A DNA stretch of 49,407 nucleotides, from contig REAR01000070.1 in assembly GCA_004295245.1 (NCBI GenBank), forward strand, positions 1 through 49,407, written 5' to 3'. This DNA is from Sphingobacteriales bacterium. GTDB taxonomy: Bacteria; Bacteroidota; Bacteroidia; Chitinophagales; Chitinophagaceae. Within the stretch, counting starts at the first letter, position 1; the number at the start of each line of letters is the position of its first letter. The position numbers were made by a program, and so were the translations under genes. This document shows positions 21,416 to 30,517 of this stretch, in pieces. The notes under the pieces are model-generated. The model ran no database searches, had not been told where the DNA came from, and was given only the letters and a program-made list of their open reading frames with translations.

Positions 21416-21448
21416 TTTGATTAGTTGGTGGGAAAAATTGTTATTTTG
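21416..21448 (+). promoter_or_regulatory. Possible promoter of the dcw cluster
   Basis: TTTG (21416-21419), then 22 nt, then TATTTTG (21442-21448), which is one base short of the TAnnTTTG consensus. The mraZ start follows 37 nt later. It is the best candidate in the gap, but imperfect. Confidence 0.35.
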
Positions 21449-21485
21449 TGTCAATAAATGTCAAAATCGTTTATACACCTCCTAA

Positions 21486-27435: not shown

Positions 27436-28713
27436 ATGCTGTATCACTTATTTGAATGGTTTAAACTGGAAGGATGGAAAGTGCCGGGTGGTGCACTGTT
27501 TCAGTTTATCACCTTCAGGGTGCTGCTGGCAATATTATTATCACTCATTATTACGTCGGTTTATGGCAAACGCTTAATTAATTTTTTACGCAATAAGCAG
27601 GTAGGCGAAACAGTAAGGGACTTAGGATTAGCAGGTGAGCAGCAGAAAAAAGGCACCCCAACAATGGGGGGCTTCATTATTATACTAGGCATTTTAATAC
27701 CCACTTTGTTATTAGCCAATTTAGATAAAGCCTACGTGCGGTTAATGATTTTAAGTACGGTATGGCTGGGTATTATTGGTTTTGTAGACGATTATTTAAA
27801 ACTGCGGTCTAAGCGTATTGCACAACAGCAAGGTATTAATTATAAAAAAGGAGATAAAGATGGCCTGGCCGGTTGGTTTAAAATACTGGGGCAAGTGGGA
27901 CTGGGGTTAATAATTGGTTTAACCCTACTGTTTAATGATAATGTAAAAGCATATCGTGAGTTTACAGGTACAACACCGCCGGTAAACGCTAAAACTATTA
28001 AAGTTGATTTAGATGGAAAGGAACGTGTTTTTGTAGAGGCAGATTATCCGGTTACTACCATTCCGTTTGTAAAGTCGCATGAGTTTAACTACTCTAAGCT
28101 ATTGCCCAAAAGTTTAAGAGAATATACCTGGGTAGTGTATTTGCTGGTTACCATTTTTATTGTTACCGCAGTTTCTAACGGCGCTAATATAACCGATGGT
28201 ATTGATGGTTTGGCAACCGGTACATCGGCATTAATTGGTGTTTGCCTGGGCATTTTTGCATACGCCAGTGGCAACCTAAGGCTGGCAGACTATTTAAATA
28301 TTATGTACATACCCAATCTGGGTGAGCTGTCCATATTTATTGCAGCTATGGTAGGCGCCTGTATTGGGTTTTTATGGTACAATGCCTACCCGGCACAAGT
28401 ATTTATGGGCGATACAGGAAGTTTAACACTGGGCGGCATAATTGCAGCCATGGCATTAATGGTACGTAAAGAATTACTGATTCCTATTTTCTGTGGCGTG
28501 TTCCTGGTAGAAAACCTGAGTGTGATGATACAGGTGAGCTATTTTAAATATACCCGCCGAAAGTATGGAGAAGGCAGAAGAGTGTTTTTAATGAGCCCTT
28601 TGCACCACCATTATCAAAAGCTAGGCTACCATGAAAGTAAAATTGTAACAAGATTCTGGATTGTGAGTGTGCTGTTGGTGGTGTTTGCCATTGTTACATT
28701 AAAGATTAGATAG
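27436..28713 (+). CDS. mraY: Phospho-MurNAc-pentapeptide transferase MraY
   Basis: Ten-helix inner-membrane enzyme that makes lipid I from UDP-MurNAc-pentapeptide and undecaprenyl phosphate. Seen: [11 protein letters not shown], the catalytic [31 protein letters not shown] and [11 protein letters not shown]. At 425 residues it is about 65 longer than E. coli MraY. The excess is a hydrophilic insert around residues 175-225 ([20 protein letters not shown] and after), which I recall as normal in Bacteroidota. Half-elements of the palindromic repeat lie on both sides (27370 and 28804). Confidence 0.96.
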
Positions 28714-28850: not shown

Positions 28851-28930
28851 TAAATAAAAAATTAGTGAAAAACCACGTGTTAAATCCAATACCAATAGAA
28901 AACCTCCTAAACTAAAGAGATTGTGGTGCA

Positions 28931-29193
28931 GTAAAATTTCAATCTATAGAAGAACCATTAATCCACCCATTCATTGAAACGGATGTTTTGTTGGGTGCAT
29001 TGCATCATAAAATAGCAGAGTCGTAAAATTTCAACCTGTAGAAGAACCATTAATCCTCCCATAAGTGGATAGTATGTTTTTGTTATAAAGCATCGCCGGG
29101 TGTATAGTGATGCCGTAAAATTTCAACCTGTAGAAGAACCATTAATCCTCCCATTAACTGAACCGATGTTTTTGTTATGAAGCAACGTATGGT
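28931..29193. repeat. Three 92-bp tandem repeats running into murD
   Basis: Units start at 28931, 29023 and 29115, exactly 92 bp apart. The first 40 bp of units 2 and 3 (from GTAAAATTTCAACCTGTAGA) are identical, and unit 1 differs at three positions. The remainder of each unit is diverged but alignable, e.g. GATGTTTTTGTTATGAAGCA at the end of unit 3 and ATGTTTTTGTTATAAAGCAT in unit 2. The murD ATG (29177) lies in unit 3; the matching codon in unit 2 is ATA. Together with the half-element it occupies the 463-bp mraY-murD gap. Confidence 0.9.
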
Positions 29194-30517
29194 AATACTT
29201 GGTGGCGGCGAGAGTGGTGTGGGCGCCGCTATACTGGCAAAGCAACAAGGGTATGATGTTTGGCTGAGCGATGGGGGCCATTTGAAAGACGCTTATAAAA
29301 AAGAGTTAGACAGCCATGCAATACCTTATGAAGAAGGAATGCATACAGAAGCCAAAATTTTAGCAGCAGCTGTGGTGGTAAAAAGTCCGGGCATACCAGA
29401 GAAGAATGAGTTGGTAAAAAAAATAAGAGCAAGGGGCATTGAAGTGATTAGTGAAATTGAACTGGCGTACCGCTATAAAGGCAATAGTAAAATTGTGGCT
29501 ATTACCGGTAGCAACGGAAAAACCACCACCACTTCTTTGATCTATCATATTTGTAAACATGCCGGGTTGAACTGTGCGCTGGTGGGCAATATTGGTTACT
29601 CGTTTGCCAAGCAGGTAGCAATAGACCCTAAAGAGTGGTACATAGCAGAAATAAGTTCTTTTCAGTTAGATGATATTAAAAATTTCAGAGCAGAAATAGC
29701 CATACTAACAAACATAACAGAAGATCATTTAGACCGGTATGAGTACAAATTTGAAAACTACATTGCCAGTAAGTTCAGAATAACAATGAATCAACAGCAA
29801 GAAGATTTTTTTATTTACTGTGCCGATGATCCTGTGACAAACCAATTTATAAACCAGTACACTATCTATTCTAACCCATTACCAATTACTATGCAACATC
29901 CTACTAACCAGGGAGGCTCTATTCAGAACGGACAAATGTCTTTAGACATGTTAAACGAACGCATGCAAATGAGTGTATATGATTTTACGCTTAAAGGCAA
30001 GCACAACCAGTACAATACTATGGCAGCAGGTTTAGCCGCAATGACCATTGGGTTGCGAAAAGAAAAAATTAAAGAAGCACTAGAGTCTTTTGAGGCACTG
30101 GAGCACCGCATGGAAAAAGTATTAACCGTGCGGGGGGTAGAATTTATTAACGATAGCAAAGCTACCAATGTAAACAGTACCTGGTATGCATTAGAAAGCA
30201 TGACCAAACCTACCATTCTTATTTTGGGTGGGGTAGATAAAGGCAACGACTACAGCCTCATCAGCGATCTGGTAAAAGAAAAAGTAAAGGCAATTGTATG
30301 TATGGGTGTAGATAATAGAAAAATTCATGAAGCCTTTGGTAATGAGGTGGAGCTGATAGTTAATACCAGCAGTGCGCTGGAAGCAGTAAATGCCGCTTTC
30401 CATTTTGCAGAAAAAGGAGATGTGGTACTATTAAGTCCGGCATGTGCCAGTTTTGATTTATTTAAAAATTACGAAGACCGTGGCAATCAGTTTAAGCAAG
30501 CTATAAGAGAACTATAA
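29177..30517 (+). CDS. murD: UDP-MurNAc-Ala D-glutamate ligase MurD
   Basis: Cytoplasmic ligase adding D-Glu to UDP-MurNAc-L-Ala, 446 residues. The N-terminal nucleotide-sugar domain starts VILGGGESGVGAAIL. The P-loop is ITGSNGKTTTT (about 108-118). AEISSFQLDDI, NITEDHLDRY and NDSKATNVNSTWYALE are the expected motifs, and the C-terminal ends LSPACASFDLFKNYEDRG. All catalytic motifs are intact. The start ATG falls inside the third copy of a 92-bp tandem repeat, so its upstream region is unusual. ftsW follows 18 nt later. Confidence 0.96.
   Translation: MKQRMVILGGGESGVGAAILAKQQGYDVWLSDGGHLKDAYKKELDSHAIPYEEGMHTEAKILAAAVVVKSPGIPEKNELVKKIRARGIEVISEIELAYRYKGNSKIVAITGSNGKTTTTSLIYHICKHAGLNCALVGNIGYSFAKQVAIDPKEWYIAEISSFQLDDIKNFRAEIAILTNITEDHLDRYEYKFENYIASKFRITMNQQQEDFFIYCADDPVTNQFINQYTIYSNPLPITMQHPTNQGGSIQNGQMSLDMLNERMQMSVYDFTLKGKHNQYNTMAAGLAAMTIGLRKEKIKEALESFEALEHRMEKVLTVRGVEFINDSKATNVNSTWYALESMTKPTILILGGVDKGNDYSLISDLVKEKVKAIVCMGVDNRKIHEAFGNEVELIVNTSSALEAVNAAFHFAEKGDVVLLSPACASFDLFKNYEDRGNQFKQAIREL

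Follow-up and report, generated by a model that had tools for sequence, protein, structure and literature searches.

Organization of the mraY-murD region

The window, that is, the whole stretch of 49,407 nucleotides that was analysed, belongs to a draft genome of 269 contigs (3.37 Mb) and carries the dcw cluster in its usual order: mraZ (21486), mraW, ftsL, ftsI, murE, mraY (27436-28713), murD, ftsW, murG, murC, ftsQ, ftsA and ftsZ. Six of the dcw genes were checked by NCBIfam; the others are named from the cluster order and were found in relatives by tblastn. The first gene 3' of the element described here is murD (29177-30517, plus strand, 446 aa; TIGR01087, E 2e-125). It is followed by matches to the ftsW and murG families (NCBIfam), and the names of murC, ftsQ, ftsA and ftsZ in the window rest on the cluster order.

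The gap between mraY and murD is 463 bp long, and all its features are on the plus strand. The first is the P box TTAGTGAAAAACC (28862-28874), which is also found after mraY in relatives. Next come a degenerate middle core, TAAATCCAATACCAATAGAAAACC (28881-28904), with comparable middle boxes in L238, L296, L299 and L309, and the GATTGTGGTGCAGT box (28919-28932), which is intact only before the first of three repeated units and is near-invariant in most of the relatives that carry the element. The core of unit 1, GTAAAATTTCAATCTATAGAAGAACCATTAATCCACCCAT, occupies 28931-28970 (match to the model R1 at 28928-28963) and its decayed remainder, a copy of the leader and murD start, 28971-29022. Unit 2 consists of the core at 29023-29062 (R1 match 29019-29055) and the decayed remainder at 29063-29114. 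The core nearest to murD, that of unit 3, lies at 29115-29154 (R1 match 29113-29147), and the murD leader from this core to the start codon at 29155-29176. In this leader five copies score above the cutoff of the position-weight matrix: the P box with 11.9, the degenerate core with 14.9 and each of the three full cores with 21.7-22.8.

Triplication of the core and decay of the copied murD start

The earlier note had described three head-to-tail units of 92 bp with a nearly invariant first 40 bp, and this description holds in every measured detail. The units start at 28931, 29023 and 29115, exactly 92 bp apart. Their first 40 bp agree at 37/40 positions between units 1 and 2, at 37/40 between units 1 and 3 and at 40/40 between units 2 and 3, while the remaining 52 bp differ at 34, 31 and 21 positions, respectively (Fisher p 8e-9, 2e-7 and 1e-6 for the partition of mismatches). 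Thus 40-65% of the positions differ in the non-core parts, and the conserved 40 bp are coextensive with the core found throughout the family. The best other self-match of a 40-mer in the window at offsets of 30-399 is 27/40, equal to that of shuffled sequence (26-27), so the 40/40 at offset 92 far exceeds what chance would give. The array is absent from the Tandem Repeats Finder listing, presumably because whole units are too diverged.

The murD ATG at 29177 is position 63 of unit 3, and the equivalent position of unit 2 is ATA (29085-29087), within TTTTTGTTATAAAGCA. Over positions 52 to 73, units 2 and 3 agree at 20 of 22 positions, which means that the start region itself was duplicated, as had been proposed from the sequence. 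The duplicated segment comprised the core and what follows it, as far as the first few codons of murD; the copied start regions then decayed, and the three cores remained nearly identical. This near-identity could in part result from gene conversion or from a second, recent duplication.

A mini reading frame, ATG TTT TTG TTA TGA, is present in unit 3 (29166-29180), its stop overlapping the murD ATG. Unit 2 retains this frame (29074-29088), ending in TAA, despite the loss of its copy of the murD start. The frame is not seen in the two congeners.

The element in relatives

In the relatives the element consists of TTACTGAAAAACC after the mraY stop, GATTGTGGTGCAGT, and then the core ending in GAARAACC...TCCG before murD. 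The pattern of the core is a run of A, two pyrimidines, A, CT, GAARAACC and TCC(G); the accompanying boxes are (TT)ACTGAAAAACC 3' of the mraY stop, where the P box usually follows shortly after the stop, and GATTGTGGTGCAGT.

With a position-weight threshold of 10, at which shuffled sequences give no match, the core is carried in 92 of the 149 mraY-murD gaps scored, a count that is descriptive, since the matrix was trained partly on the scored set, including two of the window copies. In the tree of murD proteins (106 rows) the carriers all fall within a single clade (61 rows, support 99); the carrier label changes 7 times, against 27 in shuffles. This distribution would fit one old gain of the element followed by several losses. 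In the non-carriers inside the clade mraY and murD mostly nearly touch, or the gap holds other sequence, often an unrelated dispersed repeat. The element is dispensable, given that many relatives no longer have it and show hardly any gap between mraY and murD.

The element is noncoding and orientation-specific; its place is the mraY-murD gap of a single clade of Chitinophagaceae. By comparison of these sequences, the 40-bp block is older than the local duplication and corresponds to the core of an element that is shared by the clade and normally single. Of the two origins that had been left open for the block, that it was kept or that it is recent, the former stands; the block was not born with the duplication. 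Its absence from close relatives, named in the earlier note as the mark of a neutral duplication, is not what is found, as the core precedes murD in both congeners as well.

The genus sample comprises three genomes, that of the window and those of the two congeners, and both congeners, like most carriers, have one full core. Two or three cores are found in L050, L053 (both Ferruginibacter records), L280 and L300. Their spacings are other than 92 bp, from which it follows that cores were multiplied more than once.

Inserts of another kind are seen in L012, L040 and L041, where GC-rich repeats such as GCCCGGCCTCCCTCTC...GAGAGGG stand between the element and murD and put the start codon 160-195 nt from the core.

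Restriction to the murD locus

A search of the 3.37-Mb assembly for the 40-bp block (20-mer, up to 3 mismatches) gives the three units and four unrelated matches. The exact core pattern occurs 14 times in 117 family genomes, and 13 of these occurrences are on the strand of murD, no more than about 210 bp upstream of it. The best matches of the model R1 are likewise murD leaders, the window units being the top three in their own genome. Seven stray matches of R1 or of the pattern were opened elsewhere in the genomes; none is close to a dcw gene, and long open frames enclose several of them. We see no convincing strong match in the family genomes other than before murD. The other intergenic gaps of the dcw cluster in relatives have only isolated short matches to the box, such as GAAAAACC in the mraW-ftsL gap of L212. 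A single GAAGAACC in the same gap of the window (about 23124) was rejected as a copy of the element, because in relatives nothing of the same sequence corresponds to it.

A dispersed genomic repeat of the REP kind was also rejected as the identity of the core: in the window genome the core occurs only before murD, and the dispersed repeat of that genome is a different sequence. The latter, with the core GTGCGACGCAAC, is present in 18 copies in the window against 0.14 expected (2645, 2701, 7066, 11436, 11521, 14602, 17155, 21206, 22921, 23627, 27370, 28808, 31792, 35540, 40950, 41028, 47118 and 47217), and its 13-mer form in 78 copies in the genome. Several copies are arranged as inverted pairs at distances of about 55-100 bp, in the manner of REP/REPIN elements. 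Repeats of the GTGCGACGCAAC type are also present in the mraY-murD gaps of L011, L014, L054, L055, L057, L303, L313, L322-L324, L327 and L328, which have no element, and are there often followed by GAAAAACAAAAGCTGGTAAC-like sequence directly before murD.

Comparison with known systems

The dcw cluster has another control site made of direct repeats, the MraZ box. Before mraZ the window has GTG repeats with a spacing of about 10 bp, conserved in relatives, which we take to be MraZ boxes; the likely box is GTGGGAAAAATTGTTATTTTGTG (21428-21450). These repeats before mraZ are GTGGGAAAAAGTGTTATTTTGTG-like, and the murD element differs from them in sequence, position and spacing. We rejected its assignment as an MraZ box, since what precedes mraZ in the window and in relatives is different in sequence and nowhere has GAARAACC. 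To the housekeeping promoter of Bacteroidota (-33 TTG, -7 TAnnTTTG) there is some likeness, in that the cores of some relatives resemble a degenerate -7 box; however, the conserved bases of the element lie downstream of the would-be -7 box, the spacing is variable and no perfect pair occurs.

The closest published parallel that we found is the TAACTGA direct repeats of Beggiatoaceae and some Bacteroidetes, which lie immediately before start codons and were proposed to bind a post-transcriptional regulator (PMC4679880). Those are arrays of a 7-mer at many genes per genome, whereas the murD element has a longer core, long spacers and one gene per genome. RbpB, an RNA-binding protein of Bacteroides that recognises sequence motifs in single-stranded RNA (PMC11697453), illustrates a possible kind of trans factor for the murD element, although its 41-nt motif marks a multicopy family of small RNAs (PMC11697453).

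Coding capacity, promoter and RNA structure

A leader peptide or small gene was rejected, because the spacer lengths between boxes are spread over all three frames, and start-like codons are not conserved.

Another possibility is that the core is, or belongs to, an internal promoter that serves the murD transcription unit, perhaps weak and activator-dependent, so that the triplication multiplies promoter sites. The core and the TTGTGG box do resemble TTG...TRCTTNTG in some clades, gaps in which mraY and murD come close to touching do not have the element, and pairs of TTG and TAnnTTTG with one mismatch are enriched about twofold (30 of 98 leaders, 14 expected). However, the perfect sigma-A pair (TTG, 17-22 bp, TAnnTTTG) is found in none of the 98 leaders, and perfect TAnnTTTG itself is depleted (1 leader, 8 expected), which excludes a canonical Bacteroidota promoter. 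Moreover, the GTGG of the GATTGTGGTGCAGT box stands 24-38 nt before GAARAACC, a distance too variable for a two-box promoter, and the clade of the window does not have the TTTG part (ACCTGTAG, AACTATCG) yet retains GAARAACC. A promoter as the identity of the core is thus rather unlikely, while a weak overlapping promoter is possible given the enrichment of one-mismatch pairs.

The element may alternatively be a structured, riboswitch-like leader: pairing would take place between the P box and the GTGGT box, with the core as a junction or an expression platform. Conserved boxes that look unpaired, joined by variable linkers, do resemble riboswitch junctions, and strong duplexes of the P box with GTGGT (-13 to -19 kcal/mol) are predicted in one subclade (L237, L238, L244, L245, L267). 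Against this, RNAalifold gives no consensus structure for the core and only small, inconsistent helices clade by clade; native pairs of the P box (ACCAC) and GTGGT are no better than swaps between species (p 0.11, and 0.15 for longer arms), pair-by-pair counts equal expectation (p 0.69) and no covariation is seen. Rfam gave no family at the gathering threshold, and among matches with E up to 1 none was relevant. With neither a known family nor covarying base pairs, we rejected a structured cis-regulatory RNA of the Rfam kind, and consider the riboswitch-like arrangement quite unlikely. Of the two roles considered earlier for the block, a repeated regulator-binding site is plausible, but an RNA motif, if structured, finds no support from covariation.

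The array could also be a neutral tandem duplication without function, if a recent duplication or gene conversion happened to spare 40 bp. The two congeners have a single full copy each and the extra copies are known from one genome only. On the other hand, mismatches are sharply partitioned (0/40 against 21/52 between units 2 and 3), the spared part is exactly the part that is conserved across a family-level clade, and several cores occur in other lineages too. We hold a neutral origin to be unlikely.

Proposed function

We suggest that the sequence before murD is very probably a cis element under selection. In our best reading it is a cis element specific to this lineage and of a general kind already known, which was tripled locally, and it probably contributes to the level at which the second half of the cell-wall and division genes is expressed. 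Conserved repeated sites adjoin a gene here, as in an array of regulator-binding sites. We propose, with about even confidence as to the mode of action, that the array serves a putative sequence-specific trans factor controlling the distal dcw genes. Each core would be a binding site of this factor, which would control the expression of murD, ftsW, murG, murC, ftsQ, ftsA and ftsZ, and additional cores would give more or tighter binding. The action may proceed on the intercistronic mRNA leader, where the cores would be single-stranded sites for an RNA-binding protein or a small RNA. We lean slightly to such action rather than to a DNA operator, because the boxes always lie between two cistrons inside the cluster, they are non-palindromic and variably spaced, and perfect promoter boxes are depleted. 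It is unusual for a regulator to have only one site in a genome, and this counts against the array of binding sites.

More tentatively, a dedicated switch with its own putative trans-acting factor might govern murD to ftsZ in a large clade of Chitinophagaceae, the number of tandem cores adjusting its strength; we regard this as possible but doubtful.

Last but not least, to our knowledge almost nothing beyond MraZ is known, outside model bacteria, of how the cell-wall and division cluster is controlled, and we found no description of an mraY-murD element of Bacteroidota in the open-access literature. The window offers a clear case of a short noncoding block that was retained while the sequence between its copies decays. 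A conserved element at a single locus before murD that naturally varies from one to three cores is a directly testable entry point to this control in Bacteroidota.
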